A stretch of DNA of 30,044 nt, taken from positions 1 through 30,044 of the IMG/VR virus record IMGVR_UViG_3300047328_000006, one strand, 5' to 3'. Of the stretch, positions 1,080 through 25,462 are shown one piece after another (within the stretch, counting starts at the first letter, position 1; each line of letters starts with the position of its first letter). The notes below the pieces were generated by a model. That model was given only the letters and a program-made list of their open reading frames with translations, did not search any database and was not told the DNA's origin. The DNA is from a virus. Made by a program: the position numbers and the translations under genes.

Positions 1080-1487
1080 GTGCGTAATTCAACCAAATCG
1101 CCCACCTCGAGAACCCGGCTAACGCCCGCAGGCGAGGTCGCCGCAATCCGCGACCGCCTGCTCTCCGCGGAGCAGCAGGAGCAGCAGCAGCCGCAGGAGC
1201 AGCCCCTCGAGCCCGTCGCCGCACACGCTGAGCAGAGCGCCGCCGAGCATGTGTTTCTGCGTGCCCTTCGCCCCATCCCCGTCGAGCCTGCCCGCGGCTC
1301 GTACGGCTGGGTCGTAGAAGGCAGGCACTTTAGCAATCTGCGTTTTGCACGTGCGTTCGCGGATCGGCTGTCGGAAACCTACGGCCGAAACGTGGTTGTG
1401 CAGCTCGCGCGTCCTGGCTTCGGCGAGCTGCCGAACGGCAAACGCCCAATGTGCGGAACTCCTGTAAACGCAGGAGGTGCCCGATGA
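1080..1487 (+). CDS. Hypothetical phage protein, first gene of rightward operon
   Basis: 135-residue protein of unknown function. A GGAGG at 1071-1075 favours the GTG start at 1080; the ATG two bases earlier is in another frame that closes after 14 codons. The N-terminal third is hydrophilic with a Gln/Glu-rich stretch at about residues 36-45, suggesting a flexible linker, and the C-terminal half (GSYGWVVEGRHFSNLRFARAF) looks like a small folded domain. The stop overlaps the next start as ATGA, so the genes are probably translationally coupled. No family was recognised. Confidence 0.7.
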   Translation: MRNSTKSPTSRTRLTPAGEVAAIRDRLLSAEQQEQQQPQEQPLEPVAAHAEQSAAEHVFLRALRPIPVEPARGSYGWVVEGRHFSNLRFARAFADRLSETYGRNVVVQLARPGFGELPNGKRPMCGTPVNAGGAR

Positions 1488-1636
1488 ACTGCCGCGAGTC
1501 GATCACATTGCCGCATAACGTGCGGTTCACCGATCGCGCGCTGACCCGGCGGCTTCGGCGCCGCGCCATCGCCGCCTATCGGGAATGCGCCCGGGCGGGC
1601 GTGCAGTTCCTCTGCCCCTGGCGCGTGGTGCAGTGA
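1484..1636 (+). CDS. Small basic hypothetical protein
   Basis: 50-residue Arg-rich protein. The ATG at 1484 is preceded by a strong AGGAGG (1472-1477), overlaps the preceding stop by ATGA, and its own TGA overlaps the following ATG as TGATG. This packing is typical of small phage early genes. The middle segment (RALTRRLRRRAIAAYRECAR) could form a basic helix, which would fit nucleic acid or membrane-surface binding, but no family is recognised. Confidence 0.65.
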   Translation: MNCRESITLPHNVRFTDRALTRRLRRRAIAAYRECARAGVQFLCPWRVVQ

Positions 1637-1770
1637 TGCGCGGCTGGCGTTGGCTCGGGTGGCGCGTCGTCAACGGGCTGCTCGCGTTGGCCTTGGTGGC
1701 CTACGTGGCGTCCTGGCTGTGCGCGTATGCGCTCTTCTACTGTGTCTCAAAGCTCTTAATTTGGAGGTAA
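1636..1770 (+). CDS. Small single-span membrane protein
   Basis: 44-residue protein with basic N terminus (MRGWRWLGWR) followed by a hydrophobic stretch of about 25 residues (roughly 13-38) that would make one transmembrane helix. The ATG overlaps the previous stop (TGATG). Charge distribution predicts the N terminus inside the cell. Small membrane proteins in early phage operons often act on host envelope or exclude other phages, but here that is only a possibility. Confidence 0.6.
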   Translation: MRGWRWLGWRVVNGLLALALVAYVASWLCAYALFYCVSKLLIWR

Positions 1771-1776
1771 GCCCCC

Positions 1777-1866
1777 ATGCGGTTTAGCCCAACGACGCCT
1801 TCGTTCGTCGAAGCGTTCTCGCTGTACATGTGGCGCCCGCAAGGACGTGAACAGGTGCTGGCATGA
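1777..1866 (+). CDS. Very small hypothetical ORF
   Basis: 29-codon frame with ATG at 1777 preceded by GGAGG (1763-1767, nine bases upstream), ending TGA inside the ATGA overlap with the next gene. Good spacing and perfect fit between its neighbours support translation even though the product is too short to classify. It may serve mainly to couple translation of the gene at 1863. Confidence 0.5.
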   Translation: MRFSPTTPSFVEAFSLYMWRPQGREQVLA

Positions 1867-2090
1867 GCGCCGACGACCGCGAGGAGGCACGCCGGTATCG
1901 GCGGTCGAAGAGACGTTGGCGAGTACATCGCCACGCGAGTCAAGCCGGCTCATTTGAGTGGGTCCGCTTTGACCCTAGCCGGCGAAGGCTGTGCGTCGTT
2001 TGGAGCGGCCCGGGGGGCTTGACCCGAGCGGATCGAGCCGGGGTGCGCAGGGTTTGCGCTGATCCGCTGTCGTGGACGTGGGCGCGCTAG
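1863..2090 (+). CDS. Small basic hypothetical protein
   Basis: 75-residue protein starting at an ATG that overlaps the previous stop by ATGA. The first 30 residues are highly charged and Arg-rich (DDREEARRYRRSKRRWRVHRH); the rest has a strand-like FDPSRRRLCVVWSGPG section and a short C-terminal part. Net charge is strongly positive, compatible with nucleic acid binding. No known family is recognised. It ends the first small-gene cluster and is followed by about 230 bp of regulatory sequence. Confidence 0.6.
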   Translation: MSADDREEARRYRRSKRRWRVHRHASQAGSFEWVRFDPSRRRLCVVWSGPGGLTRADRAGVRRVCADPLSWTWAR

Positions 2091-2254: not shown

Positions 2255-2299
2255 TGGTGGGACATCGCGGACTCGAACCGCGAACCTTCTAATTAAGAG
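2255..2299 (-). tRNA. 3' half of tRNA-Lys(CUU), partial; probable attachment-site core
   Basis: Read on the minus strand, 2299-2255 matches a tRNA from the anticodon loop to the end: loop CTCTTAA with anticodon CTT (2297-2295), 3' strand of the anticodon stem TTAGA, five-base variable loop, perfect T arm (CGCGG, loop TTCGAGT, CCGCG; 2282-2266), acceptor strand ATGTCCC, discriminator A, and encoded CCA (2257-2255). The 5' half is absent: beyond the anticodon loop the sequence becomes a GA repeat with no D arm or matching 5' acceptor strand. It cannot make a tRNA. A 45-bp identity to a tRNA 3' end is the classic form of an integrase attachment core, where integration rebuilds the host tRNA. No integrase gene is visible, so a tRNA remnant is the alternative. 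Confidence 0.75.
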
Positions 2300-2320: not shown

Positions 2321-2581
2321 ATGCAAACCAACCCGTTGGCACACTCGGTGTTTAGGAAGAAGCCGCCCGATGTGGCCGCCGTGCCCTCGCTGCCGCCGGC
2401 TCGCGCTGAAGGGCTCGGCGCCGCCTTCGTGGTCGTCACCGACCCCGCCGAGGTTGACGCCGTCCGCCGGTACGAAGCGGGCTACTACGATGGCGTCGCC
2501 GGCATCGAGCTTAACGGCCGCTGGTATGCGCACGTCGGCTCGCTTGCTCTCTGGCGTCGTTGCAACGGGCGCCCCCAGTGA
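2321..2581 (+). CDS. Hypothetical phage protein
   Basis: 86-residue protein starting at ATG 2321, directly after a GA-rich purine tract ending GAGGGACC. The C-terminal half (AFVVVTDPAEVDAVRRYEAGYYDGVAGIELNGRWYAHVGSLALWRR) has alternating strand and helix character and looks like a compact alpha/beta domain; the N-terminal 30 residues are likely flexible. No family recognised. It is the first gene after the attachment-like element and is separated by 71 bp from the Ala-repeat paralogue cluster. Confidence 0.65.
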   Translation: MQTNPLAHSVFRKKPPDVAAVPSLPPARAEGLGAAFVVVTDPAEVDAVRRYEAGYYDGVAGIELNGRWYAHVGSLALWRRCNGRPQ

Positions 2582-2652
2582 GCCCGGGCACGAACAGGGC
2601 GGCTCCGTCGTTGGCTGCCCGCCGCGCGACGGTCTCCCCCGGAGAGAACGCG

Positions 2653-3482
<830 letters not shown>

Positions 3483-3486
<4 letters not shown>

Positions 3487-4361
3487 TCCACCCCGACCGG
3501 CTCGCCGAGATCGAGCACATTGATCTCGCAGCTGGCGCCCACCACGATCGTGCCAAGGGGATGTGCGTCATGGAGGCGGTCAGCTACGTGGCCGGTGAGC
3601 CGTGGAGCGATTCCCCTGACTGCGCGTGCCCGGTCGTCGCGGCGTATTTGCGGACGCTGAACGACCGGATGCCGCACCGAGAGCGGCAAAAACTGAAGGC
3701 TCTGCTGCCCCGTCTCGTGGGCTCCCGCTCCGTACCCGCCGTCGCGCGTCGCCGCGCATGCGCCGCAGCGGACAGCACACTACGCGTGTTCGCCGCCGCC
3801 ACCCTCGACGCCGCGGGCCGGAAAGAGGACGCGGAGCGACTGCGTGCTCTGCCCGAGATTGTTGACGAAAGTACCGCCCGCGCCGCATCCACCGTCGCCT
3901 CCACCGTCGCCGCCACCGTCGCCTCTATCGTCGCAGCCCGCGCCGTCCGCGCCGCCTCCACCGCCGCCTCCACCGCCGCCTCCACCGCCGCCTCCACCGC
4001 CGCCTCCACCGCCGCCGCCCGCACCGCCCGCGCCGCCGCCTACGCCGCAGACGCCGCCGCCTACGCCGCAGACGCCGCCTACGCCGCACGCGCCGCCGAC
4101 GCCAAAGCCGCGTACGCCGCCGCCGACGCCAACACCATCGTCTACGCCGCCCACGCCACCGACGCCGCCGCCGCCGCCGCTGCCGCCGACGCCAACGCCG
4201 TCGCCTCCGCCATCTATGCTGCCTACGCCGCCTACGCGGCCTACGCCGCCTACGCGGCCTACGCCGCCTACGCGGCCTACGCCGCCGACGCACGGGACGG
4301 CGTGATTGAGCTGGCGGAGAGGATGCTGGATATCACAGAGTCACCGGACGCGGCTCCGTGA
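3483..4361 (+). CDS. Ala-repeat paralogue B with conserved MCVMEAV/GEPWSD domain
   Basis: 292 residues, starting at an ATG overlapping the previous stop (ATGA). The first 125 residues are highly similar to paralogue A (GMCVMEAVSYVAGEPWSD, CACPVV, LLPRLVGSR, RKEDAERLRALPEIVD). The tail differs completely in repeat type: a Val-containing section, five exact AAST units (3951-4010), a mixed AAYAADA section, and a terminal AAY repeat of period three (4221-4286). It ends with the shared DGVIELAERMLDITESP. Polar residues fall at every third or fourth position of an Ala helix. The different tails on nearly identical heads imply repeat expansion after duplication. Confidence 0.8.
3951..4010 (+). repeat. 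12-bp tandem repeat x5 encoding AAST
   Basis: Five exact copies of GCCGCCTCCACC in frame within paralogue B. A unit of four codons shows slippage-type expansion that keeps the reading frame. Confidence 0.9.
4221..4286 (+). repeat. 18-bp tandem repeat x3.6 encoding AAY
   Basis: Three exact copies of an 18-bp unit (4221-4274) alternating TACGCC GCC and TACGCG GCC, followed by a partial copy that degenerates to GACGCA. It encodes Ala-Tyr-Ala repeats with Tyr every third residue. The alternation of GCC and GCG shows that an 18-bp unit, rather than 9 bp, was amplified. Confidence 0.9.
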
Positions 4362-4753: not shown

Positions 4754-5024
4754 AGAGGAGGGAGACGGGTGCGTACACGGCGCCGTGGACGGCCACGGCC
4801 ACGGGCACGGACTCGGGGACGGGGACGGGTTCGCGGACGGGTACGGATTCGGGGACGGGTTCGGGGACGGGAGCGGGGACGGGTTCGGGGACGGGAGCGG
4901 GTACGGGTTCGGGGACGGGAGCGGGGACGGGTACGGGTTCGGGGACGGGAGCGGGGACGGATTCGCGGACGAACTGAACAGGCAAGCCGGCGCCCCGGGC
5001 GATCAGACAGGAGGCGCACGATGA
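4740..5024 (+). CDS. Gly/Asp/aromatic low-complexity repeat protein
   Basis: 94 residues. After MTTAKEEGDG it is an HGHGHG patch followed by about 50 residues of GDG(F/S/Y) units such as GDGFGDGSGDG, ending ELNRQAGAPGDQTGGAR. This frame has C or G at nearly every third codon position, as real genes here do; the competing Arg-rich frame does not. It overlaps the upstream stop and its TGA overlaps the next ATG (ATGA). A GAGGAGGG at 4756-4763 lies inside it and would better serve a GTG at 4769 in the Arg-rich frame, so the start is uncertain. Asp-Gly repeats could bind calcium or phase-separate; this is speculation. Confidence 0.5.
   Translation: MTTAKEEGDGCVHGAVDGHGHGHGLGDGDGFADGYGFGDGFGDGSGDGFGDGSGYGFGDGSGDGYGFGDGSGDGFADELNRQAGAPGDQTGGAR
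4814..4970 (+). repeat. 6/12-bp G-rich tandem repeat (GGGGACGGGTTC/GGGGACGGGAGC)
   Basis: Degenerate 12-bp units alternating GGGGACGGGTTC, GGGGACGGGAGC and GGTACGGG variants, underlying the Gly/Asp repeat protein. G runs of three to four at close spacing on the plus strand could form G-quadruplex structures in DNA or mRNA. Confidence 0.8.
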
Positions 5025-5665
5025 TCCACCCCGACCGGCTTGCCGAGGTCGAGCGCCGTCAGCTCGCAGTGGGTGCCCACGACGGCCCCACCGAGGGTAT
5101 GTGCGTCATGGAGGCCGTGGCGTGGATCTCGGGCGAGCCCTGGAGCGACACGCCGCGGTGCGCATGTCCCGTGGTCTCCGCATATCTGCGAGCGCTGAAC
5201 GACGGGATGCCCGCCGGCGAGAGGCAGCGGCTGAAAGCGCTTATCCCGCGTCTGGTGGGCTCGCGCGCGACGACGGGCGTTGAGCAGCGCCGCGCAAACC
5301 TCGCCGCCGACACGGCCGTGCGAGTGTTCGCTTCCCGAGCATTAGACCGGCTGAGCCGGACGGAACGTGCGGCGCAACTGCGCGCGCTGGATCCGATCGT
5401 TGGCGTAGGCACGGCACGTGCCGCGCACAACGTCGTCCGCGCCGCCGCCGCCGAAGCCCCCGGCGCCGCCCGCGCCGCCTCCGTCGTCGCTTTCGCCGCT
5501 TACGCCGCCGACGCCGCCGCCCGCGCCGCCTCCACCATCGCCTACGCCGCGTACGCCGCCGACGCCGCCGCCAACGCCGCCTTCGCTGCCGACGCATGGG
5601 ACGACGCGATTGATCTGGCGGAGAGGATGCTAGATATCACGGAGTCACCGGCCTCCAGCCTATGA
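5021..5665 (+). CDS. Ala-repeat paralogue C with conserved MCVMEAV/GEPWSD domain
   Basis: 214 residues, ATG at 5021 with AGGAGG at 5009-5014 and ATGA overlap with the Gly/Asp gene. The head (MIHPDRLAEVERRQLAVGAHDG, GMCVMEAVAWISGEPWSD, CACPVV, LIPRLVGSR) is homologous to A and B but more diverged after residue 75. The Ala tail is shorter (about 65 residues) and less regular, with AAYAADAAARAASTIAYAAYAADAAANAAFAADA, and it keeps the terminal DLAERMLDITESP. An in-frame GTG at 4769 would add an Arg-rich extension; I reject it because the internal start is stronger and matches the paralogues. Confidence 0.8.
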   Translation: MIHPDRLAEVERRQLAVGAHDGPTEGMCVMEAVAWISGEPWSDTPRCACPVVSAYLRALNDGMPAGERQRLKALIPRLVGSRATTGVEQRRANLAADTAVRVFASRALDRLSRTERAAQLRALDPIVGVGTARAAHNVVRAAAAEAPGAARAASVVAFAAYAADAAARAASTIAYAAYAADAAANAAFAADAWDDAIDLAERMLDITESPASSL

Positions 5666-5701: not shown

Positions 5702-7615
5702 GTGCTTGAAGCGGACTTTGTGCCGCTCGCCGACACCACCCTAGTGTCGGCATTTGCATTCTGCCGCGCCGACGGTTACCTTGTCTCGGACTTGGGGACC
5801 ACTGCCCTGCGCACCTACACCGTCAGCACGATTGCCAGCCTCACGGACACTGCGGCGCCTTCGGTCCGCGAATACACCTGGGAAGGGCTGGTCGAGCTGC
5901 TGACCAGCGGCAAGCCCGTCGAGAGCGACAAGCGCGATCTGCCGCTGTTCTTTACGGGCCGGCTATCGCTCCGCGATAAGGCGCACACCGAGTCGGTGAG
6001 CTGCATCACCGTCGATTACGACGCGGGTGCGAACAGCCAAACCGGCGAACTGCTCTCGCTGGCGGATGCTCTCGATAAGCTGACGGCGCTAGGGGTTCTC
6101 GCGCTCGGCTACACATCGCCCAACCACGCCGACGCCGCACCGCGCTGGCGCGTGGTCTGCCCCTTGTCACGCGATTACGGCGTCTCGGACATTGCCACTC
6201 TCGCGGGGCTCGTTGATCGCGCGCTCGGTGGTTGTCTGGCCCGGGACTCGTTCACGTGGCGAGTTTACTTCTATGGCGCGCGGCTCGGCGGCACATATCG
6301 GACCGGCACGACGAGCGGCACGAAGTATATCGATCAGGTCGGTTTACAGCCGCTTTTACCGGTCCGCGCGACGGCTGAGGGGCCGGCAACTCCGGCGCGC
6401 ATTTACGACGGCGAGGGGCGGCGTGAGGCCATGCTATCCGCTGCCGCGAAGCTTCGCGACGCCGGCCTCTCGGGAGCCGCGCTTCGCGACGCCCTGTATG
6501 CGTGGGACGAGACGCACTGCGACCCGCCGCGCTGGACCACTCATGAGAGGGACTGCGAGCGCATCGCGTCCGACTACTCAGCCAAGGCGGAGCGCGTTCA
6601 CGCGTCGGATTACCTGACCGACGTGCCGCTACCGGCGCGCGGCCCTGCGCCCGTTTCGGCCGAGGCCCCGGCCCTCCCCGGGTTCCGGGCGGTGGAGGCC
6701 CGCATCGTCGACGTCGAGCACGTCGTCGACGGCTTCATCCCCAAGGGCGGAGTCGTGCTGCTGTATGGCGAGTCCGGGGCCGGCAAGTCCTTTCTCGCGA
6801 TTGACTTGGCCATGCGGATCGCCGCCGGGCTCGCCGTCGACGGCCGCGAGGTCAAGGCGGGGCCGGTGCTGTACCTTGCCACCGAGGGCGAAGGCGGCAT
6901 CGCCAACCGCGTCGTCGGCTGGCAGACCGCGAACGAGCTGCGCGATGTCCCGGCTCACTTCATCGCCTGCTCGCTGGACCTTGTGAACGGCGAATCGCTG
7001 GCCGGGGTGCTGGGGTGGGCCGAGGCGTTCAGGGCCCAGGAGGGCCGCCCGCCTGCCTGCGTCGTGATCGACACTGTTGCGAAGGCATTCGGGGGCGACG
7101 AGAATTCCGGGCAGGAAGTCAAAAAGCTAATTGACGCGTTGACGACGATCGCCCGGAGCACGCAGGCCACCGTGCTCGCCGTCTACCACACGGGCAAGAA
7201 CGCCGACCGCGGCGCGCGGGGATCCTATCGGTTCAAGTCGGACGTCGACACGTCAATCGTAGTCACCAAGGAAAACGACTACTGCGAGGCGGTCGTCGAC
7301 AAACAGAAGGATTCCGCCGACGGCGTCCGGTTGGCCTTCCGTCTCCGGCCCCAGGCAATTGGCCTTTCTGCGTCCGAAAAGCTTATCTCTACCTTGGTGG
7401 TTGACTACATCCCGAGCGCGGAAGTAGCGAAGCGGCCGAAAGCCGAGGAAATTTTGGAAGCGATGGGCGCCGGCCCGCACACCCGCGACGCGTTACGCGA
7501 AGCCGCCAACGACGCTGACGCCAAACACGCGGATCGTCTGTTCCGGCAAATGCTCCGCCGCTGCGAGCGCGACCCGGAAACCAATCTGTACACGATCAGG
7601 GCCTACGCCGAATGA
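5702..7615 (+). CDS. Primase-helicase (AEP-like N-terminal domain plus RepA-type ATPase)
   Basis: 637 residues from a GTG at 5702 after AGAGAGG. The N-terminal half has an AEP primase-like hhhDhD motif, ITVDYDAG (D105, D107), and a SPNHADAAPRWRVVCPLSR segment seen in phage prim-pol proteins. The C-terminal half is a RecA-fold ATPase like RepA: Walker A GESGAGKS at 356-363, LATEGEGG, Walker B CVVIDT with D457, and the AVYHTGKN sensor with H496. The last 60 residues may be a winged helix. It probably primes and unwinds DNA for the family A polymerase encoded downstream. Its stop overlaps the next gene. Confidence 0.85.
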   Translation: MLEADFVPLADTTLVSAFAFCRADGYLVSDLGTTALRTYTVSTIASLTDTAAPSVREYTWEGLVELLTSGKPVESDKRDLPLFFTGRLSLRDKAHTESVSCITVDYDAGANSQTGELLSLADALDKLTALGVLALGYTSPNHADAAPRWRVVCPLSRDYGVSDIATLAGLVDRALGGCLARDSFTWRVYFYGARLGGTYRTGTTSGTKYIDQVGLQPLLPVRATAEGPATPARIYDGEGRREAMLSAAAKLRDAGLSGAALRDALYAWDETHCDPPRWTTHERDCERIASDYSAKAERVHASDYLTDVPLPARGPAPVSAEAPALPGFRAVEARIVDVEHVVDGFIPKGGVVLLYGESGAGKSFLAIDLAMRIAAGLAVDGREVKAGPVLYLATEGEGGIANRVVGWQTANELRDVPAHFIACSLDLVNGESLAGVLGWAEAFRAQEGRPPACVVIDTVAKAFGGDENSGQEVKKLIDALTTIARSTQATVLAVYHTGKNADRGARGSYRFKSDVDTSIVVTKENDYCEAVVDKQKDSADGVRLAFRLRPQAIGLSASEKLISTLVVDYIPSAEVAKRPKAEEILEAMGAGPHTRDALREAANDADAKHADRLFRQMLRRCERDPETNLYTIRAYAE

Positions 7616-8103
7616 GGTACCCGAAAGTAGGTGACGAACAGTGCGTGATTGCTCGCGCCGCGAACGATGAAAAGACGCTGATGCTTGCGACGGCGTACTG
7701 GGCTCAAGTCGTCGGTTCAAAAACAGGGGCAGACATTGACGACGTCTACGACGCAATGCTGCATGTATCTCAAAACTGGCGGAAATGGGACCCGATGAAG
7801 GGCCGGTTTAGCGATTGGGCGAAAAAGTCATTGCGCACCCGGCTGCGTGAAATACATCGCAACCGGACCAACCGGGAACGGCTCGCCCCAATGGAGCCGA
7901 TTACGGACATGACGGACCCGCGCACGCCGGACGACCCGCTAGAGATCCTGATCGCGGACGAGACGGCCGACCTGTTGATGAGCGGGTACGGCCGGCGCTG
8001 CAAGGTCTGCGGCGAGGTCAAGCACCGCCGCGCGTTCCCACGCACGTCCCGCATCGCTGAGATCCGCCCGACGTGTACCGCCTGCACGGAGCGCGGCAAG
8101 TGA
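7612..8103 (+). CDS. Sigma70 region 2-like protein with C-terminal zinc finger
   Basis: 163 residues, ATG overlapping the helicase stop. Residues about 40-85 (DIDDVYDAMLHVSQNWRKWD, then PMKGRFSDWAKKSLRTRLREIHR) resemble region 2 of sigma70-type factors, including the WDPxxGxFSxWA pattern and basic helix. There is no region 4; instead residues 130-158 carry two CxxC pairs (C130, C133, C155, C158) in a CKVCGEVKHRRAFPRT context, a treble-clef-like zinc module common in phage nucleases and DNA-binding proteins. It may redirect host RNA polymerase to phage promoters, or be a DNA-binding protein using the same helical fold. Its stop overlaps the next start as GTGA. Confidence 0.65.
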   Translation: MRYPKVGDEQCVIARAANDEKTLMLATAYWAQVVGSKTGADIDDVYDAMLHVSQNWRKWDPMKGRFSDWAKKSLRTRLREIHRNRTNRERLAPMEPITDMTDPRTPDDPLEILIADETADLLMSGYGRRCKVCGEVKHRRAFPRTSRIAEIRPTCTACTERGK

Positions 8104-8831
8104 CCCATGCCCGGCTGTCGCCGTCGAGCGCAGCCCGCTGGCGCGCCTGCCCGGGCTCGGCGCGCATCATCGACGCGACACCGCCCGAGGCACCCAAGGC
8201 GTACACCCAGCACGGGACGTACTTGCACGGGATCGCGGCCGACTTGCTGCTGAACAAGTACCCGGTCGCGTCGCCCGAGGACACTCTTGCGGTTGCGCCG
8301 TACGTCGAGTACTGCCGCGGCCTGCGCGGCGAGCACCACGTCGAGAAACGCGTCGAATTGTCCGCTTGGGGGCTCCCCCAGGTCCACGGAACGGCCGACT
8401 TCATTGCCTTCGGGTCGGGGACGATTGAAGTCGTCGACCTAAAGACGGGCAAGGGCGTGGGCGTCAAGGCGCACGGCAACGCGCAGCTCGCGCTGTACGC
8501 CGCTGGCGCAGTGGACTACGTCGGTCGGCTGCACGTCCGCTCTGTCCGAATGACCATCGTCCAGCCGCCGCGGTCGCCCCTGCCGCAAACGTGGGCGATC
8601 ACGCTAGACGAACTCGCCACCGTCGTGCGCGAGCTACGCGACGCCGCCGCACTCGTCGCCGAGGCTGACGCCGCAGAGGACGTCACCCCGTATCTCAAGG
8701 CCGGGGCCCACTGCTACTCCACGTTTTGTCCTGCTCGCACGGCAGGAACTTGCCCCGCGTCTGGCAGCGTCGCGCGCAAGAAAATGATCGAGCTGCTAAC
8801 CGACCTACCTACAACCACTGAAACCGAGTAA
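8100..8831 (+). CDS. DUF2800 family Cas4/AddB-like PD-(D/E)XK nuclease
   Basis: 243 residues from GTG 8100 (GTGA overlap), giving the family-typical start THARLSPSSAARWRACPGS. Nuclease residues are H43 (GTYLHG), D100 (HGTADFI), D113 and K115 (VVDLKTGKG), the RecB/Cas4 pattern. One N-terminal cysteine, C17, and three C-terminal ones, C205, C210 and C218 (CYSTFC, then TCPAS), match the arrangement that holds an iron-sulfur cluster in Cas4 and AddB. It probably processes DNA ends in phage recombination together with the following ssDNA-binding protein. Confidence 0.85.
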   Translation: MTHARLSPSSAARWRACPGSARIIDATPPEAPKAYTQHGTYLHGIAADLLLNKYPVASPEDTLAVAPYVEYCRGLRGEHHVEKRVELSAWGLPQVHGTADFIAFGSGTIEVVDLKTGKGVGVKAHGNAQLALYAAGAVDYVGRLHVRSVRMTIVQPPRSPLPQTWAITLDELATVVRELRDAAALVAEADAAEDVTPYLKAGAHCYSTFCPARTAGTCPASGSVARKKMIELLTDLPTTTETE

Positions 8832-8833
8832 CC

Positions 8834-9454
8834 ATGCAGACCATTACTACCCCTGACATCTATAAAGACATCAAGGCCACGATTCAGACGACCGACAAGG
8901 GTGACGTGCTGATCACGGGCGTCGCGATCCTGAGTTACCCGGCGCTTTTCGAGCCCAAGGCGCGCAGCGAGGACAAGCCGGACGATAAGGTGTACTCCTG
9001 CCAGCTCGTGTTTCCCGCAGACCAAGCGGAAAACATCAAGGTCGTTCAGCAGGCATACATCAATGCCGGCATGCGCGACTTGGGTAAGGAGAAGTTCGCG
9101 AAGCTATCGAAGTCGTCGAGTTTCAAGCGGGGCTTGCGCGACGGGCAGGAGAAGGATTGGCCGGCGGGCTTCATGTTCCTTAACGCGTCGACCAAGTTCA
9201 AGCCGCAGATTCTTGATCACCTGCGGCAGGAAATTAAGGATCCGGCCCGCGTCGAGCCGGGCTACTGGGTGCGGGCGATCATCAAGCCGTATGGGTTCGA
9301 GAAGGCCGGCGCGGCGGGTGTCGCTGCGGGGCTTAACTCGATTCAGATTCTCGGCCCGTCGGGGCTGAAGCTCGGCGGCTCGAAGGATTACACCGACGCC
9401 TTTAGCGAGGTCGCCCTGCCGGCGGCCGCGCTCGAAGAGGACGTGTACGGCTGA
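8834..9454 (+). CDS. DUF2815 family single-stranded DNA-binding protein
   Basis: 206 residues, beginning two bases after the nuclease stop. The LITGVAILSYPALFEPKA start, the long KVYSCQLVFPADQ strand, the WPAGFMFLNAST segment and the EPGYWVRAIIKPYGF stretch fit the phage DUF2815 family, OB-fold proteins that bind single-stranded DNA. The acidic end (LEEDVYG) is like the acidic tail of SSB proteins that recruits partners. The pairing of DUF2800 and DUF2815 genes is common in phages and supports both calls. A terminator-like hairpin follows. Confidence 0.8.
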   Translation: MQTITTPDIYKDIKATIQTTDKGDVLITGVAILSYPALFEPKARSEDKPDDKVYSCQLVFPADQAENIKVVQQAYINAGMRDLGKEKFAKLSKSSSFKRGLRDGQEKDWPAGFMFLNASTKFKPQILDHLRQEIKDPARVEPGYWVRAIIKPYGFEKAGAAGVAAGLNSIQILGPSGLKLGGSKDYTDAFSEVALPAAALEEDVYG

Positions 9455-9461
9455 CGCTTGG

Positions 9462-9486
9462 CGGGGCGGTGCTTTCGGCCGCCCCG
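9462..9486 (+). terminator. Hairpin after the ssDNA-binding gene, probable partial terminator
   Basis: CGGGGCGG (9462-9469) pairs with CCGCCCCG (9479-9486) around a nine-base loop, followed by TTCTCTTAG. The 8-bp GC stem is strong but the T run is short, so it may act as a leaky terminator that raises the ssDNA-binding transcript relative to downstream genes, or stabilises its 3' end. Confidence 0.55.
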
Positions 9487-9511
9487 TTCTCTTAGTTCGG
9501 AGATAGCGAAC

Positions 9512-9733
9512 ATGGATAAAGCCGAACGCGATGCGGCCGCCCGTCACCTTGCCGCGATGAAGGTGGCCGCCGGTTACCCGGGCACGGAGCGGCCGGGCGC
9601 AATTTACGGTGTGGGCGCGTCCACTCAGCGCCACTGGGAATCCGATGCGTGGGGACAATTCGAGCGCCGCAAAGGGCCGGCACGGTCCCGCGGCCGCTAC
9701 TCGCCATACGTTCGGGTGGTGACACGTGCTTAA
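9512..9733 (+). CDS. Small hypothetical protein
   Basis: 73 residues from ATG 9512, preceded by CGGAG (9498-9502). The charged N-terminal helix (DKAERDAAARHLAAMKVAA) and the GYPGTERPGAIYGVGASTQRHWESDAWGQFERR part are not from a family I recognise. It overlaps the RusA gene by eight bases and sits between recombination genes, so a role as a small accessory of that system is possible. Confidence 0.6.
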   Translation: MDKAERDAAARHLAAMKVAAGYPGTERPGAIYGVGASTQRHWESDAWGQFERRKGPARSRGRYSPYVRVVTRA

Positions 9734-10127
9734 CGTGCGCCTATCGGGCATCAAGCCTTTGCCGACGCCACGCCCCCGCATCGCGGTCCGCGGCCGGTTT
9801 CCGGTGGCGTACTACCCGAAGGCATATGAGGACTACCGCCAAGAAATCGCGCGGCTGTTGGCCGAGTTCCGGCCCGAAAAGCCGCTCGACGGTCCGCTGG
9901 CCGCGCGCATGTGCTTCTACGTCAACGCGCCGCGCGCGACGAAGCTCCGCCACCCCAAGCCCGACATCGACAACTTCGTTAAGGGGCTGCTCGACGCCTG
10001 CACCAAGGCGGGCTATTGGCTCGACGATTCCCAGGTCGTCCATATCTTCGCTACGAAACGGTGGACGCACCGCGGCGAGCTTGAGGGCTTGTCCCTAGAA
10101 GTCTGGGATGGCGGGGCCTTCTTGTGA
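9726..10127 (+). CDS. rusA: RusA family Holliday junction resolvase
   Basis: 133 residues from GTG 9726. The motif PDIDNFVKGLLDACTKAGYW followed by LDDSQV is the RusA signature, with metal-binding D80, D82 and D90 or D101 and the conserved K86. RusA enzymes are dimeric endonucleases that cut four-way junctions symmetrically; phages use them to resolve recombination and replication intermediates before packaging. The length is normal for the family. It overlaps the preceding small gene and its stop overlaps the polymerase start as GTGA. Confidence 0.9.
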   Translation: MLNVRLSGIKPLPTPRPRIAVRGRFPVAYYPKAYEDYRQEIARLLAEFRPEKPLDGPLAARMCFYVNAPRATKLRHPKPDIDNFVKGLLDACTKAGYWLDDSQVVHIFATKRWTHRGELEGLSLEVWDGGAFL

Positions 10128-12079
10128 CCGGCTTTGCATCGTTCGATTTGGAGACGTTCAGCGAAGCCGACCTGTCCGAGGTCGGCACGTACCTATATGC
10201 CGAGCACCCGTCTACGCGCGTCCTGTGCGTCGCCTACAGCGTCAACGGCGGACCGGTCCAGCTCTGGCCGCACCGGGACTCGCTGCAACCGCTGATTGAC
10301 GTGATCAGAGCCGGCGGCACCGTGCAGGGCCACAATGTCGAATTCGACATGGTCCTATGGAATCGCACACTCCGCCGTAGCGTAGTCGTCCCCGAAATCA
10401 AGCCCGAGCAGCTGAGCTGCACGCGGGCTCGGAGCGCAATGCATGGCCTGCCGCAGTCGCTCGCCGACGTGGGCCAGGCCCTGGCGCTCTCGACGCAGAA
10501 GGATTTCGAGGGGCGCGCGCTGATGCTCAAGCTGTGCCGCCCCGCAAAGCCCGTCAAGGCCGAGGGCGACGCGCCAAACCCCCTGCGACTGCACACGCCC
10601 GAGAACCTGCAGCGGCTCGGCGCCTACTGCGCGCGGGACGTCGAAACCGAACAGGCCATCGGCGCGGTCGTGCCCGAGCTGACCCAGCCCGAGCGCACCG
10701 TCTACCTCGTCACCCATCGAATCAACGAGCGCGGATGGCGGGTCGACTTGCCGCTGGTCCGTGCGTTGAAGGAGCAGGCGGCAGCCCGGCAGGTTGAGTG
10801 CTCCGTGCGTATCGCAGAACTGACGGGCGGCAAGGTCAAAGCGTTCACCAAGGTCGCCAACCTGACGGAGTGGCTGCGCTCGAAGGGCGTCAACGTGCCG
10901 GGCGTCGATCGACACGCGCTTATGCGCGCGCTCAGGACAACCGAGGGCGACGTGCGGGCGGTCATCGAAGCCCGACTAAACGCCGCCCGGTCCAGTGTCG
11001 CGAAGCTCGACGCGATCCTGGCGCAGACGCACGACCGCTATTGGCTGTGCCGCGGGCAATTTGTCTACGCGGGGGCCGGCGCGACGGGCCGCTGGTCGGC
11101 TCGCGGCGTGCAGCTCCAGAATTTGCCGCGAGTGCCGGAGCCGGTCGCGGCTGCCTTCGACGCTTACCGCGAGCGCGCCATGTCGGGCTCGCTCACCCTC
11201 GCCGAAATCTCGCAGATGCTCCGCGGGTGCTTCACGGCAAGCCCGGCCCGGCTTCTGCTGCAGGGCGACTACAAGCAAATCGAGCTTCGCGTGTTGCTGT
11301 GGCTGGCTGGCGAGGACGAATGGTGCGAGTACTTGACTAGACCCGACGGCGATCTTTACAAGATAATGGCGGCACGCATCTACCGCACGACGCCCGAGAC
11401 GATCACCAAGCCGCAGCGGTTCGTCGGTAAGACGGCGGTATTGGGCTGCGGGTACGGCGTCGGCGCGGCGCGGTTCGCGGAAGCCTGCGACGAAGCCGGC
11501 CAGCCGGTCACGGACGACGAAGCCAAAAGCGCCGTGCTCGGGTATCGCCAGACGTTCGGGGGCGTCCCGGATCTCTGGCAGTCGTCGCAGATTGCCGCCT
11601 TTGACGCGGTCCGCGATCCGTCCCGCGAGTTCTCGTGCGCCAAGGGCCGGATCACCTACCGCATGGTAGACGGCGTGCTCCGGTGCCGGCTCCCGAGTAG
11701 CCGCGAGCTGTGGTATCGGAAGCCGCGCATAGAGCGCGCGATGAAAACATGGTCGTCTGGCGGCCGGACCGAGGAATGGGTCCTGTTCTATGACGGAATC
11801 AACACGCTGACTCGCCGCTATGAAAAGACGTCAACTTGGGGCGGCCGGCTGGTCGAGAACTTTGTGCAGGCGACGGCGCGAGACCTGATGGCCCGCGCGC
11901 TGTGCCGGCTTGAGGCGGCCAAGTTCTCCGTCGTCGGCACGATTCACGATAGCGCCATCTCAGACGAATACGGCGAGGGCCGCCTCGCGGAGTTCAAAGG
12001 AATCATGGAGAACGTGCCGGCATGGGCCGCGGGCTGCCCGATTGAAGTCGACGCGGAAGCGTCTTACCGCTTTAAGTGA
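10124..12079 (+). CDS. Family A DNA polymerase with 3'-5' exonuclease
   Basis: 651 residues from GTG 10124. The N terminus starts a DnaQ-like proofreading domain with FDLET (D8, E10) and continues through a helical linker. Polymerase motifs are A, DYKQIELR (D382), B, RFVGKTAVLGCGYG (R432, K436), and C, GTIHDSA (H608, D609), all intact. There is no N-terminal 5' nuclease domain, as in T7-type replicative polymerases. It is probably the phage replicase, working with the primase-helicase and ssDNA-binding protein encoded upstream. Confidence 0.92.
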   Translation: MTGFASFDLETFSEADLSEVGTYLYAEHPSTRVLCVAYSVNGGPVQLWPHRDSLQPLIDVIRAGGTVQGHNVEFDMVLWNRTLRRSVVVPEIKPEQLSCTRARSAMHGLPQSLADVGQALALSTQKDFEGRALMLKLCRPAKPVKAEGDAPNPLRLHTPENLQRLGAYCARDVETEQAIGAVVPELTQPERTVYLVTHRINERGWRVDLPLVRALKEQAAARQVECSVRIAELTGGKVKAFTKVANLTEWLRSKGVNVPGVDRHALMRALRTTEGDVRAVIEARLNAARSSVAKLDAILAQTHDRYWLCRGQFVYAGAGATGRWSARGVQLQNLPRVPEPVAAAFDAYRERAMSGSLTLAEISQMLRGCFTASPARLLLQGDYKQIELRVLLWLAGEDEWCEYLTRPDGDLYKIMAARIYRTTPETITKPQRFVGKTAVLGCGYGVGAARFAEACDEAGQPVTDDEAKSAVLGYRQTFGGVPDLWQSSQIAAFDAVRDPSREFSCAKGRITYRMVDGVLRCRLPSSRELWYRKPRIERAMKTWSSGGRTEEWVLFYDGINTLTRRYEKTSTWGGRLVENFVQATARDLMARALCRLEAAKFSVVGTIHDSAISDEYGEGRLAEFKGIMENVPAWAAGCPIEVDAEASYRFK

Positions 12080-12088
12080 GACCTCACG

Positions 12089-12277
12089 ATGTATGAGTTC
12101 AAGTATGCCGACGACCTGTCGTTGCACGTCGAGCGCCGGGCCGGGCTCGCGGGCGCGCTGGCGCTCACAGAAGCGTTTCTGCGGCTGCTGCGCGCGTCGG
12201 GACACAAAGACGAGTCGGTTAAGGCCGCGCTGCAACAGTGGCTGCTCACCTACCCCGACAAAGGGAGGCCCCAGTGA
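12089..12277 (+). CDS. Small hypothetical protein
   Basis: 62 residues, ATG at 12089 nine bases after the polymerase stop, with only a weak purine stretch upstream. Mostly helical (LHVERRAGLAGALALTEAFL, then RLLRASGHKDESVKAALQQWLLTY). No family recognised. Its stop overlaps the next gene start, GTGA, so it is in the operon. Confidence 0.6.
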   Translation: MYEFKYADDLSLHVERRAGLAGALALTEAFLRLLRASGHKDESVKAALQQWLLTYPDKGRPQ

Positions 12278-12507
12278 GCCAGACAAAGGTCGGGTCGGCC
12301 GCCGAGGCCGGCGCGAACATCGCCGTAGGCTTTGGCGTGAACTGGTGCGCCAATCTGGTCGTGCTCCCGCTATTCGGGCTCCGCATCACGGGCCACCAAG
12401 CGTTCCTGATGGGACTCGTGTTCACAGCGATCTCGCTAGTACGGTCCTACGCGCTGCGTCGCTTATTCAACGGGATGCGCTGGGGGTACACAAATGCTGC
12501 CGGTTGA
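12274..12507 (+). CDS. DUF7220-like two-span membrane protein
   Basis: 77 residues from GTG 12274 (GTGA overlap with the preceding stop). The pattern SQTKVGSAAEAGANIAVGFG, VNWCANLVVLPLFG and FLMGLVFTAISLVRSYALRRLFN fits a small phage membrane family that I recall as DUF7220, with two transmembrane helices at about residues 18-38 and 45-62 and a basic C terminus on the inside. Function unknown. Overlaps the next gene by 14 bases. Confidence 0.7.
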   Translation: MSQTKVGSAAEAGANIAVGFGVNWCANLVVLPLFGLRITGHQAFLMGLVFTAISLVRSYALRRLFNGMRWGYTNAAG

Positions 12508-12799
12508 CGCTAAGGCTCGAAAAGCCGTGCCCATCTACTCGGGCGTGTTGCGCTACTTCCCCGATGCGCTGATCGCCGTGGCAGAGTTGTCGCGCATCGG
12601 GAACGAGCAGCACAACCCAGGTAAACCGCTGCATTGGGACCGAACCAAAAGCGGAGACCAGTACGACGCGCTAGTGAGGCATTTGCTCGAAGCGGGAACG
12701 ATCGACAGCGACGGCGTGCGGCACTCGGCCAAAGTCGCATGGCGCGCGCTGGCCGCGTTGCAGATTGAGATTGAGGCGAGCCGTGCCGTACAGGGATAA
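12494..12799 (+). CDS. DUF5664 / dATP-dGTP diphosphohydrolase-like domain protein
   Basis: 101 residues. The sequence ARKAVPIYSGVLRYFPDALI, AELSRIGNEQHNPGKPLHWD, RTKSGDQYDALVRHLLEAGT and RHSAKVAWRALAALQIEIEA is the DUF5664 pattern, in Pfam described as the N-terminal part of dATP/dGTP diphosphohydrolases (from memory). All-helical; conserved Asn-Glu-Gln-His, Asp and His residues could coordinate metal and nucleotide. It may adjust the dNTP pool during replication. It stands alone here without the MazG-like catalytic part, so activity is not proven. Confidence 0.75.
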   Translation: MLPVDAKARKAVPIYSGVLRYFPDALIAVAELSRIGNEQHNPGKPLHWDRTKSGDQYDALVRHLLEAGTIDSDGVRHSAKVAWRALAALQIEIEASRAVQG

Positions 12800-13244
12800 G
12801 GAAAAGGCCCGGGCGTACAATCGGGCGTATCGCAAGGCAGACCCTGAGCGGGCCCGTAATTACAAACGCGGGTATGTCGCGGACCCATGGGGCCGAGCAG
12901 TAAAACTAGTCGGTGACGCGAGGCGCCGCGCGAGACAAAAGGGCCTGCCTTGCACCGTGACGGCCGAAGAAATAGTGAAGCGCCTAGCGCGCGGCTGCGA
13001 GGTGACGGGCGTTCAATTTGACCTGACACGTGGCGGCAGGCGCAGGCCGGATTCTCCTAGTCTGGACCGAATCGATAGCACGGAGGGCTATACACCCGAC
13101 AACGTTCGCGTCGTTTGTTGGTGGGTCAACGCGCTTAAGTCGGACGCGACGCTAGACGAGCTACGAAAAGTCGCTGAGTGGGTAGACCACCTAGCGGTAA
13201 CCCAGGCCGGCATCGCCGCGCTTTCTGACGTCCAAATTTCTTAA
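12783..13244 (+). CDS. HNH endonuclease-like protein
   Basis: 153 residues; GTG at 12783 is the likely start, overlapping the previous gene by 17 bases. The N terminus is basic (YRDKEKARAYNRAYRKADPE), followed by a DNA-binding helix region and a C-terminal nuclease-like block CEVTGVQFDLTRGG, SPSLDRIDSTEGYTPDNVRV and VCWWVNALKSD. SLDRID-GYTPDNVR-N-KSD is typical of small phage HNH-like proteins. Position at the end of the replication operon fits either a free-standing homing endonuclease or a packaging-associated nuclease. Confidence 0.7.
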   Translation: MPYRDKEKARAYNRAYRKADPERARNYKRGYVADPWGRAVKLVGDARRRARQKGLPCTVTAEEIVKRLARGCEVTGVQFDLTRGGRRRPDSPSLDRIDSTEGYTPDNVRVVCWWVNALKSDATLDELRKVAEWVDHLAVTQAGIAALSDVQIS

Positions 13245-13595: not shown

Positions 13596-13995
13596 CGTCG
13601 TGACGTTTACACGCCGCGGCGAAGCCCTCCCAGGGCACTAGCCGCATCGCGTCGAGCAGCGAACCATAGAGCCGCACGAACTCCGGTCCGTGCGGCGCTT
13701 TCTTGTCGCGCGAATTGAGGTACATCACATAGTGCGCCAGCTCGTGAGCGAGCACGAGCCCGTTGCATCCCTGCGTGCAGTCTAGCCGCAGCGTCTCCGC
13801 TTCCTGCTCGCCTGCCACGGCCAGCGCGAGAACTTCGATTCTCGGCGGTTTGACCCGCAACGACCTGCAGGCCCTGAGCGCGAGCCGTCGAAGTTGCTTG
13901 TACGGCAGTACGTGCTCGAACCAGCCAGCAAATTCGGCTGATTCCATCGCGTAGATTTTGTCGCGCTGAGGGTCGTTGGCCGGCGGGCGGCTCAC
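13567..13995 (-). CDS. Zincin metallopeptidase with HELAH motif (SprT/mini-zincin-like)
   Basis: 142 residues from GTG 13995, which overlaps the holin stop (GTGA); a longer frame from 14127 is not supported. The motif HELAH at 84-88 with H102 in the following HGPEF is the zinc site of a gluzincin-like family, closest in style to SprT-type peptidases. A helical N terminus (WFEHVLPYKQLRRLALRACR) precedes it. It has no signal peptide, so it probably acts in the cytoplasm. Last gene of the late operon, just after lysis genes; a role in virion maturation or host protein cleavage is possible but not shown. Confidence 0.7.
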   Translation of the reverse strand: MSRPPANDPQRDKIYAMESAEFAGWFEHVLPYKQLRRLALRACRSLRVKPPRIEVLALAVAGEQEAETLRLDCTQGCNGLVLAHELAHYVMYLNSRDKKAPHGPEFVRLYGSLLDAMRLVPWEGFAAACKRHDVRIARKITR

Positions 13996-14402
13996 GCTTT
14001 GCCCTTCAGGCGCTCCGCGGTACGCAGGCCGCCGAGGCCCAGCAGCCCCCCGAGGATCGTCATAAGGTCGGTCATGTCGAGCGACGGGATGGGCGCCACC
14101 TGAGCACCAAATAGCCCAACCCCCCAAGGCAGCAAAGGCCGGACGATGAACTGCACGGCCAACGCGGCGCCGCCCACCCAGCCCACGAACGGTCGCCAGC
14201 CCCCGCGGAACAAGTCGGGCGCGGCGGCCTCGACCTTGTTGATTTCGGTCTGCGCGATGGCGAGCTGCATCTCGGCCTCAAGCGCCTTGAGTTCGCCGGC
14301 TTGCTGAAGCTTTAGAACTTCAATCTGCGCGGCGGCCTTCGCGGCGGGGTCCGGAATGACTTTGTTCAGGATCTCTAGCGCAGCGCCAATGAGCGGCGTC
14401 AT
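13992..14402 (-). CDS. Holin, three-transmembrane GTA-type family
   Basis: 136 residues, ATG at 14402. A long N-terminal helix (residues about 15-55, AKAAAQIEVLKLQQAGELKA) leads to FRGGWRPFVGWVGGAALAVQ, a second hydrophobic segment FIVRPLLPWGVGLFG and a C-terminal glycine-rich segment LMTILGGLLGLGGLRTAERL. The GGWRPFVGW and LGLGGLRTxExxKG patterns are those of the 3TM holin family (DUF3154). It would make the membrane lesion that releases the lysozyme. Overlaps the exported protein gene upstream (ATGA). Confidence 0.8.
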   Translation of the reverse strand: MTPLIGAALEILNKVIPDPAAKAAAQIEVLKLQQAGELKALEAEMQLAIAQTEINKVEAAAPDLFRGGWRPFVGWVGGAALAVQFIVRPLLPWGVGLFGAQVAPIPSLDMTDLMTILGGLLGLGGLRTAERLKGKA

Positions 14403-14671
14403 GTTGACTGCTCCGCCTGTAGCTTCACTCGAATTGCTTCGACCGAGCCGTCAGGCTTGATCACCAAACAGTGCGCGTCGCGCGGCGCCACCGCTTCGAC
14501 GAAGCACGCGTAAACGAGCCCCACGACGCCCATGATTCGGACCGACGCGAGCACGACGTGCCCGGCGTTGTCCTGAATGAACAGCGGCGTTTGCGGGGCG
14601 CCGTCTGCCTTCGCGCCTACGTGGCAGATACTAGCCGCGACGGCACAGCAAGAGATAAGAAGTTTACGCAC
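14399..14671 (-). CDS. Small exported protein in the lysis region
   Basis: 90 residues from a GTG at 14671, overlapping the lysozyme end by eight bases. It starts with a basic MRK, a hydrophobic stretch (LLISCCAVAASICHVG) and a plausible signal peptidase site AKA-DG near residue 23, so the mature protein of about 67 residues would be periplasmic. Mature part has strand-like VVLASVRIMGVVGLVYACFVEA. Position between lysozyme and holin suggests a lysis function such as a spanin-like or regulator protein, but it lacks the usual spanin coiled coil or clear lipobox. Confidence 0.6.
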   Translation of the reverse strand: MRKLLISCCAVAASICHVGAKADGAPQTPLFIQDNAGHVVLASVRIMGVVGLVYACFVEAVAPRDAHCLVIKPDGSVEAIRVKLQAEQST

Positions 14672-15113
14672 GGGGTTTCCTGGCGGGGACGTCTTTCGGG
14701 TACTCGCCGGTTCGCATCATCGTGGCAAGCCGGGTAGCTCGGGCACCGACTTGAGTTGCCCATTTGCTTTTAAGCATCTCGTCGGCGGCGGAGCCGTACT
14801 GGCGGCAACGCAGGGCGATCATGAACCGCTTAAACGCGGTGAGCTTCCCATAGCCCATGTTGAAGCACATATCGGTAAGAACCATGCGCCGCACGGGGTC
14901 TAAAGCCTCAAACCCAGGAACATAGCGACGCAGCATATCCTCCGCGTGCGCAATGTCCTGCTCGAGCTGCGCATCTATCTGCGCGTCGGACCACGTCATG
15001 TTGATGTTCAACGGCAACAAATGCCCAACGCCAATCGTCGGGTTACCGAGCGAGTCGTAATAGGTTCTGTACCGCCGCCCTTCGTGGAATTCAAGCAAGT
15101 CGCGGATATCCAT
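14664..15113 (-). CDS. T4-type lysozyme endolysin (GH24)
   Basis: 149 residues. The N-terminal EG-x7-DSLGNPTIGVGH places the catalytic triad at E11, D20 and T26, the same numbering as in T4 lysozyme. The remaining helical lobe includes DPVRRMVLTDMCFNMGYGKL and SKWATQVGARATRLATMMRT, characteristic of the family. It hydrolyses the glycan strand of peptidoglycan. It has no signal peptide or SAR segment, so export depends on a holin. Confidence 0.93.
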   Translation of the reverse strand: MDIRDLLEFHEGRRYRTYYDSLGNPTIGVGHLLPLNINMTWSDAQIDAQLEQDIAHAEDMLRRYVPGFEALDPVRRMVLTDMCFNMGYGKLTAFKRFMIALRCRQYGSAADEMLKSKWATQVGARATRLATMMRTGEYPKDVPARKPRA

Positions 15114-15319
15114 TAGTCGCGATTCCGGGAAAGCTTATAAATGCTGTAGACGCCCGCAATAATCGCGATAAGGCTTGCGATCGAATGCAGCAGGGCGTCC
15201 CCGCGGATAAGTACATTGCCAATCGTGGTGACGAGTGACACGATGGCTCCTATGAAGCCGAGAGCGTGCTGCGCGGGGGTTTCTTGCATGGGCTGGGTGT
15301 GTGACATGGTGGAAGGCAC
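15113..15319 (-). CDS. Putative second holin, two transmembrane helices
   Basis: 68 residues (start GTG 15319, or ATG 15307; neither has a good ribosome binding site, and position directly after the upstream stop suggests coupling). Two hydrophobic helices (HALGFIGAIVSLVTTIGNVL and IASLIAIIAGVYSIYKL) with a basic C-terminal KLSRNRD, and TAATG contact with the lysozyme gene, are holin features. The end GVYSIYKLSRN resembles small phage holins. Together with the 3TM protein it could act as a holin/antiholin pair. Confidence 0.65.
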   Translation of the reverse strand: MPSTMSHTQPMQETPAQHALGFIGAIVSLVTTIGNVLIRGDALLHSIASLIAIIAGVYSIYKLSRNRD

Positions 15320-15320
15320 G

Positions 15321-15824
15321 TTAGTTGGGCTGGACGCTCTGTAGAACCGGCCAAGTCAGCCAACCTGCCTTTGCGCCCGGTTGGATGCCCCAGCCGAACC
15401 GCAGACGCCAGAGGTAGACGCACTGGTAAGGGCCAGACGTGCAGACCTGGATCGGGCCGAGGCGCGTCGTCACCGCGTCGGCCGGTAGCGGCAGCATCGC
15501 GCCCGGCAGCAGCCGCATGCCGTTGGCGCTGTTCCGGAGAGCACACCAGACATACGCCGCCCATCGCGGACGGCCGGGATAGCGCATGCGGAACCATTCA
15601 GGCCCGTACACGCCGTCCTCATCGTTCCCCCACAGCGCCGTGAGCCTCCCCCCGCGCCAAGCAAGAACCAGCCGGCCCTCGTAAGCCGGCAGATAGGAGC
15701 GGCGCAGCTCCGTGAGCCGCAGTGCCGCGAGCGGGGCCACCACGACGAACCCCACGGCGGACACCAGCACCGATGCCACGCTGTAAGCGATCCAATACGC
15801 CCAAGTCTTCACGATGCCTGCCAT
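15321..15824 (-). CDS. Membrane-anchored phage protein, DUF7338-like
   Basis: 167 residues from ATG 15824 (overlapping the cupin gene by 16 bases). An N-terminal transmembrane segment at about residues 8-33 (WIAYSVASVLVSAVGFVVVA) is followed by a Trp-rich region including WGNDEDGVYGPEWFRMRYPG and RWAAYVWCALRNSANGMRLL. I associate WGN(D/E)EDG with a phage family named DUF7338; confidence in that name is low. Function unknown. It lies between tail and lysis genes, and may modify or plug the host membrane. Confidence 0.6.
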   Translation of the reverse strand: MAGIVKTWAYWIAYSVASVLVSAVGFVVVAPLAALRLTELRRSYLPAYEGRLVLAWRGGRLTALWGNDEDGVYGPEWFRMRYPGRPRWAAYVWCALRNSANGMRLLPGAMLPLPADAVTTRLGPIQVCTSGPYQCVYLWRLRFGWGIQPGAKAGWLTWPVLQSVQPN

Positions 15825-16141
15825 GTCGGTCCACTCAGTGTGTAGTTGAGATCGTCGTAACCGAGCCCATTGTACTCGGCCGGGCGGCCGTTGATGAAGC
15901 GATTGACGATGACGGCCGGCTCGCGGCTCCAAAGCGCGTGCGGCTGGGTATTGTCAAAAACGTACTCGCCGTCGGCCGCCGTCAGGGTCACTGTCCGGTC
16001 GTCGAATACCACGTTGACGCTACCGGATTCGACGCGGATGGCGTGCGCAAGCGCCGCCGTGTGCACGTGCCGCGGGAAGCCCTCGCCGGCCGTGTCAAAC
16101 GTGTAACGCAGGCTGTCGCCCTGGTCTGTTTGAGTAATCAT
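15809..16141 (-). CDS. Cupin-fold protein in the tail module
   Basis: 110 residues, ATG overlapping the stop of the glycine-rich gene (ATGA). Residues 20-90 form a conserved beta-barrel pattern: HVH (H25, H27), AIRVESGSVNVVFDDRTVTL, GEYVFDNTQPHALW (H68), then EPAVIVNRFINGRP, consistent with one cupin domain that binds a metal. Substrate unknown. Found directly after tail fibre and tip genes, it may be a structural element or an enzyme acting on a surface polymer, but this is inference. Confidence 0.65.
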   Translation of the reverse strand: MITQTDQGDSLRYTFDTAGEGFPRHVHTAALAHAIRVESGSVNVVFDDRTVTLTAADGEYVFDNTQPHALWSREPAVIVNRFINGRPAEYNGLGYDDLNYTLSGPTWQAS

Positions 16142-16743
16142 GTGTAGCTGAACACCACGCGGCCGGCAGCGCCCTGCGTGCGCCCGTTGTTGGCGGAGCC
16201 CGTGCCGGCGTTACCGCCCGCGCCCGCGGATAGCGAGTTGAGCCCGACGATAGCGACGCCGCCGGCGCCGGCGCCTGAGGGCGCGTAAAGCGAACCGTTA
16301 CCCCCCGGGTTGCCCGTCGTGTTCACGACGCTGCCACCGGACGCGGAGCCGCCGAGGCCGCCGGCGGCGGTGGGCGAGCCGCCCGCGGCGCCGCCGTTGG
16401 CGGTTACGCCCGTAATGGTCAGTGTGCCGCTACTGATCGACGACGCGTTGCCGGGGTTGCCGAGGCCCGACGCGGCGCCGACGGCGTAGTTGATGGTTTT
16501 GCCGCCCTGGCCGAGCACGCTGAACGACGTGCGCGAATAGCCGCCCGAGCCGCCGCCCGAGCCGTTGATCGCGGCGCAACCCGTGCCCGTGCCTGTTCCG
16601 CCTGTTCCGCCGCCGCCCCACACCTGCACGACGCACGTGGTTGCGTTAAACGGGACGGTTTCGGCACCCGAGCCCGACGTGTAGTCACGGGTGACCGGCA
16701 CGAACGGGCTGTTGGCGAGCCGGAATGCGTTGTGCGCACCCAT
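16138..16743 (-). CDS. Glycine-rich tail tip / receptor-binding protein
   Basis: 201 residues; ATG shares bases with the tail fibre stop (TAATG). The first 35 residues include VTRDYTSGSGAETVPFNATT and lead to VVQVWGGGGTGGTGTGTG, followed by long Gly/Ala/Ser repeats (GGGSGGYS, GGAAGGSPTAAGGLGG, GAGAGGVAIVGLN) ending GRTQGAAGRVVFSYT. This is the glycine-rich domain found at phage tail fibre ends and probably forms polyglycine-II-like sheets between which variable loops bind the host. As the last tail protein it may decide host range. Confidence 0.75.
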   Translation of the reverse strand: MGAHNAFRLANSPFVPVTRDYTSGSGAETVPFNATTCVVQVWGGGGTGGTGTGTGCAAINGSGGGSGGYSRTSFSVLGQGGKTINYAVGAASGLGNPGNASSISSGTLTITGVTANGGAAGGSPTAAGGLGGSASGGSVVNTTGNPGGNGSLYAPSGAGAGGVAIVGLNSLSAGAGGNAGTGSANNGRTQGAAGRVVFSYT

Positions 16744-17951: not shown

Positions 17952-17976
17952 GCGTCACACTCCTAGAAAGTCGAAT

Positions 17977-18005
17977 TGCAACCGCGCCGTGTCCGAGATA
18001 AAGTC
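17977..18005 (+). promoter_or_regulatory. Promoter for the lipoprotein moron
   Basis: TTGCAA (17977-17982) and TAAAGT (18000-18005) are separated by exactly 17 bp and lie 29 bp before the ATG at 18035. Each box matches the sigma70 consensus at four positions. It lies on the strand opposite to the surrounding late genes, as expected of an autonomous moron. Confidence 0.55.
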
Positions 18006-25459: not shown

Positions 25460-25462
25460 GCG

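Follow-up and report, generated by a model that had tools for sequence, protein, structure and literature searches.

A probable attachment core formed by the 3′ half of a tRNA-Lys(CUU) gene in an uncultured soil phage

Transfer RNA (tRNA) genes are the usual insertion sites of temperate phages, and a fragment carried by the phage repairs the gene that is interrupted. Phage-type attachment sites (attP) made of a tRNA fragment are the rule for integrative islands (PMC4383910). Among the tRNA-fragment sites in Islander, 3760 have 3′ fragments and 159 have 5′ fragments, and 2083 are centred on the anticodon (PMC4383910). The attP cores of mycobacteriophages in tRNA-Lys(CTT) are typically 45–49 bases long (PMC2884959, PMC10865867). 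Here we describe a 45-base element at 2255–2299, on the minus strand of the soil phage sequence IMGVR_UViG_3300047328_000006, which corresponds to a tRNA-Lys(CUU) gene from its anticodon loop through to CCA, lacks the 5′ half and is proposed to be an attP core. The sequence analysed (the window) is the complete IMG/VR record of 30,044 bases; as it is classed as linear, it is probably a fragment of the phage genome. The element fits established tRNA-type integration because its 3′ origin, its start at the anticodon and its length of 45 bases all agree with the published sites (PMC4383910, PMC2884959, PMC10865867).

The assignment was made by sequence, pattern and identity comparison. Read on the minus strand, 2255–2299 is CTCTTAATTAGAAGGTTCGCGGTTCGAGTCCGCGATGTCCCACCA. 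The anticodon loop is CTCTTAA (CU-CUU-AA), giving the anticodon CTT, and the variable loop is AGGTT. The T stem (CGCGG/CCGCG) is entirely Watson–Crick paired, the T loop TTCGAGT has the invariant bases, and the 3′ end consists of the acceptor strand ATGTCCC, the discriminator A and CCA. The preservation of base pairing and invariant bases argues against tRNA decay. The original prediction, made from the letters alone, had placed a tRNA-Lys(CUU) segment from anticodon loop to CCA here; the boundaries proved to be exactly 2255–2299 and the features canonical. It had also stated that the 5′ half was missing, and the rest of the window yielded no D arm or tRNA 5′ half. ARAGORN and Rfam (gathering scores) gave no tRNA call for the window, as expected where only half a gene is present. 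With no D arm or acceptor 5′ strand the cloverleaf is incomplete, and the element was therefore not accepted as a functional tRNA gene. At a permissive threshold, Rfam returned sub-threshold similarity to Plastid-ycf2 5′UTR (E = 0.54) and, for the T arm only, to mascRNA (E = 7.5); both were taken as chance-level resemblances.

The combined pattern of T arm, acceptor strand and CCA occurs at one site in the window, against a mean of 0.0 per 30 kb in 200 Markov shuffles. When the 3′ halves of bacterial and phage tRNA-Lys(CUU) genes were compared with the window, identity was 30–37 out of 45 bases and the top placement was always exactly 2255–2299, whereas the best value for any reference in 200 shuffled windows was 29/45. 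For reference tRNAs identified by ARAGORN, identity was 34/45 with Nonomuraea, 36/45 with Tsukamurella, 33/45 with Thermomicrobium and 37/45 with a faecal phage. The half gene, with its intact tRNA features, is real and lies far above chance expectation.

The arrangement of this half gene was compared with 22 longer relatives that share the structural module of the window and have a major head protein 65–88% identical to that of the window. Pfam detected a PF00589 integrase in eight of the 22. A ninth integrase, of 364 amino acids, was present in G014 but was not caught by Pfam; it is 26–28% identical to the integrases of G003, G013 and G008. It is located at 11909–13003, ∼1 kb from the 3′ half of a tRNA-Asp(GTC) gene, with small genes between. 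Partial tRNA genes were found in seven of the nine integrase-bearing relatives and were absent from all 13 relatives in which no integrase was detected (Fisher p ∼2e-4, with relatedness ignored). In six of the nine (G001, G002, G003, G008, G013 and G014) the partial gene is a 3′ half ending at CCA. These halves come from different tRNAs, begin at or near the anticodon loop and lie ∼24 to 960 bases from the integrase. The 5′ part of a tRNA-Arg(TCT)-like gene (7260–7313) lies beside the integrase of G022, which is the rarer 5′-fragment type of attachment site. A whole tRNA-Val gene adjoins the integrase of G016, and the integrase of G010 ends at the contig end. Both G008 and G013 have 127-base end repeats, indicating circular genomes of ∼39 and ∼41 kb, and carry the tRNA fragment in this circular form. 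The attachment sites of this phage group, which has one structural module, thus come from several tRNA genes (Lys, Asn, Asp, Val and others).

One of these relatives, G003 (IMGVR_UViG_3300044710_000020), also has a tRNA-Lys(CUU) 3′ half, extending from CTCTTAAT to CCA. These first bases are identical to the start of the window core, which thus begins, as in G003, with the anticodon-loop bases CTCTTAA at a known crossover sublocation, although the border is blurred by an adjoining (AG)10 run. The two phages share the structural module but differ in their replication modules, and the integrase of G003 is ∼200 bases from the CCA end. As the two cores agree at just 30/45 bases, the host tRNA of G003 differs from that of the window phage. 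The mycobacteriophages Tweety, Che8, Llij and PMC use a tRNA-Lys gene as the bacterial attachment site (attB), and the hybrid tRNA is likewise phage-derived from the anticodon stem onward (PMC2884959). Their int gene is adjacent to the core and integration has been shown by experiment, whereas neither an integrase nor a host was found for the window phage, which has another structural module. The Islander tRNA gene fragments resemble the window core in being 3′ fragments with an anticodon-centred crossover, the commonest kinds (PMC4383910), but Islander demands an integrase within the element and there is none in the window fragment.

Since comparable tRNA 3′ halves adjoin tyrosine integrase genes in phages that share the structural module, the 45 bases are best explained as the tRNA-type attP core of a temperate phage, and we consider this explanation probable. 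The phage would have its own copy of the part of the host tRNA-Lys(CUU) gene that runs from anticodon loop to CCA, and a tyrosine integrase encoded outside the fragment would catalyse strand exchange between this core and the host gene at the anticodon loop. The host 5′ half would thereby be joined to the phage 3′ half, so that the tRNA gene stays functional with the prophage behind it. We infer that the integrase gene lies in the missing part of the genome, that the phage is temperate and that crossover takes place in the anticodon loop. Known understanding of tRNA-type integration is unchanged by this locus, which is another case of a well-known arrangement. Its value is that an uncultured phage with no integrase in the available fragment is marked as probably temperate, and that an exact test for the host is offered, namely a genome whose tRNA-Lys(CUU) gene ends in these 45 bases.

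A number of results weigh against an attP core. As the original prediction had remarked, no integrase is visible: a Pfam search of the window found none, and a profile of the integrases of the relatives gave a best score of only E = 2.2. On this score, an integrase among the small or diverged open reading frames of the window was rejected. No more than ∼1 kb separates integrase and fragment in the relatives, but no integrase gene was detected on either side of the window core (2.2 kb on the left, 27.7 kb on the right). The integrase would have to lie >2.2 kb to the left of the core, which is unusual in comparison with the relatives, and our confidence is therefore no higher than stated. With the next start codon only 21 bases away, the core also has little space beside it for a right arm outside a gene. 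Finally, no integrated copy of the phage was found. No match was returned when an exact 41-mer and one degenerate 31-mer were scanned against 84,980 species genomes, or when four core patterns (exact or degenerate) were scanned against IMG/VR contigs. Because these scans require an exact match at fixed positions and had no positive control, they show no more than that no match was returned.

The attP core of the original prediction thus stands as the best explanation, through the integrase-linked tRNA halves of the relatives and the documented tRNA-Lys cores, but the integrase, host and inserted prophage that should accompany it were not found. A temperate lifestyle is probable on the same reasoning, set against 30 kb, including the 2.2 kb to the left of the core, in which no integrase was detected. 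The expectation that the core would lead to the host was not borne out: neither the 84,980 species genomes nor IMG/VR yielded a genome or viral contig with this tRNA, and the best known halves match at 33–37/45 bases, so that no host tRNA-Lys(CUU) gene with an identical 3′ half or with the phage inserted was obtained. BLAST searches with the core against plasmids and Escherichia coli gave just ordinary tRNA-Lys(CUU) genes and other tRNAs, at lower identity. The closest tRNA-Lys(CUU) halves among those compared are mostly actinobacterial, which may hint faintly at the host but does not amount to an assignment. The host may simply not have been sampled. In a conjugative plasmid of the actinobacterium Xylanimonas allomyrinae (NZ_CP035496.1; L141, 301–340), an incomplete tRNA-Lys(CUU) stretch was seen in an intergenic gap; it is probably an attachment site of the plasmid itself.

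The absence of a nearby integrase would be accounted for if the core were instead the displaced tRNA fragment at the end of a prophage, with host chromosome at 1–2254, phage DNA from ∼2300, and the intact tRNA gene and integrase at the other, missing end. The orientation fits, with the anticodon side towards the phage genes and the CCA side towards 1–2254, as at a distal end. There are also no convincing genes in 1–1070 and no phage match for 1–2254, and the tetranucleotide use of 1–2254 is somewhat unlike the rest (0.298 versus a median of 0.234). However, this deviation in composition is small, and the Ala-repeat region within the phage deviates more; there is no plasmid match for 1–2254 either, and G008 and G013, with their end repeats, hold the fragment in circular form. 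The genes at 1080–2090 are small, overlapping and translationally coupled, like phage early genes; for this reason an attP core is preferred, and a prophage end, although the strongest of the alternatives, is considered unlikely.

The lack of an integrase in 30 kb would also be seen if the core were a fossil attP: the phage would descend from a temperate ancestor and, after losing the integrase, have become lytic while keeping the site. A complete replication module of lytic type, including a polymerase and an exonuclease, is present in the window, and 13 of the 22 relatives have no detected integrase. Yet none of these 13 carries a tRNA fragment and the tRNA features of the core show no decay. 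Judged by the circular relatives of 39–41 kb, ∼8–11 kb of the genome is probably absent from the window, which would leave room for an integrase, and loss of the gene seems to us very unlikely. Still less credence is given to a phage truly without an integrase of its own that keeps a functional attP and uses the recombinase of the host, of another prophage or of a co-infecting phage. The least probable explanation is that the core remains from a tRNA-Lys gene of the phage itself, or that misassembly at the (AG)10 run truncated a whole tRNA gene. The anticodon end of the core does coincide with a simple repeat, a common site of assembly errors or slippage, and some relatives (G004) have whole tRNA genes. 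The break at the anticodon loop is, however, where the integration-derived 3′ halves of the relatives start, and would be rare for a random cut or decay.

The (AG)10 dinucleotide run is perfect and is located at 2296–2315 (Tandem Repeats Finder and inspection of the sequence). It adjoins the anticodon-loop end of the core and also provides the purine-rich sequence that precedes the ATG at 2321. Because the anticodon-loop end merges into this run, the 5′ limit of the tRNA-derived part can be placed only to within a few bases. Slippage starting at the anticodon-loop CTCT may have produced the run. On the CCA side, an intergenic stretch of 164 bases (2091–2254) is a candidate attP arm. The sequence CACGTGCTA has just two copies in the window, at 2112 (plus strand) and 2215 (minus strand), which form an inverted pair within this stretch. 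A 7-mer repeated as often was present in 137/663 comparable windows, and candidate arm sites were seen on the left only. As candidate arm sites, the CACGTGCTA pair would tend to favour phage DNA to the left of the core, with low statistical weight.

The run of small overlapping genes to the left of the core (1080–2090, plus strand) is phage-like in form. Several of the genes are preceded by Shine–Dalgarno-like stretches, and no homologues of them were found. Further left, in 1–1070, the contig end has a (TGAGCGCCCC)n tandem repeat, a 25-base stretch is repeated exactly in direct orientation (458–482 and 709–733) and GGAAATCCTTTA(G/A)AATCAATGACTTA occurs twice, at ∼610 and ∼659. This region is possibly a control or origin region, or host DNA. 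Directly to the right of the core is a gene for 86 amino acids (2321–2581, plus strand) with no family match.

The replication module (5702–12079, plus strand) includes genes for an AAA helicase (5702–7615), a DUF2800/exonuclease protein (8073–8831), a Gp2.5/Enc34-type single-stranded DNA-binding protein (8834–9454) and a family A DNA polymerase (10124–12079). A search of IMG/VR for close relatives of the helicase, exonuclease and polymerase of this left arm found none. From ∼13.6 kb, the lysis and structural module (13992–30042, minus strand) encodes a holin, a lysozyme, a tail protein, an amidase and the major head protein (27942–28940, minus strand). For the major head protein, 80 relatives with identity of up to 88% were kept from IMG/VR; more distant named relatives include those of Bradyrhizobium phage ppBjS10J-1 and the Myxococcus phages Mx8 and Mx9, among others. 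A PAPS-reductase-like gene (21810–22511) and an acetyltransferase-like gene (23430–24005) lie amid the structural genes.

Between the core and the replication module there are three tandem paralogues, at 2560–3486, 3483–4361 and 4769–5665. Pfam gave no match for 2560–3486 and 3483–4361, the two that were tested, and phrog_13065 was a weak match in all three. The N-terminal domain (IHPDRLAEIE..., ...MCVMEAVSYVAGEPWSD...) is conserved among the paralogues, and long Ala-rich repeats (AAYAADAA...) come after it. Further copies of these Ala-rich genes are present in the relatives G008 and G019.
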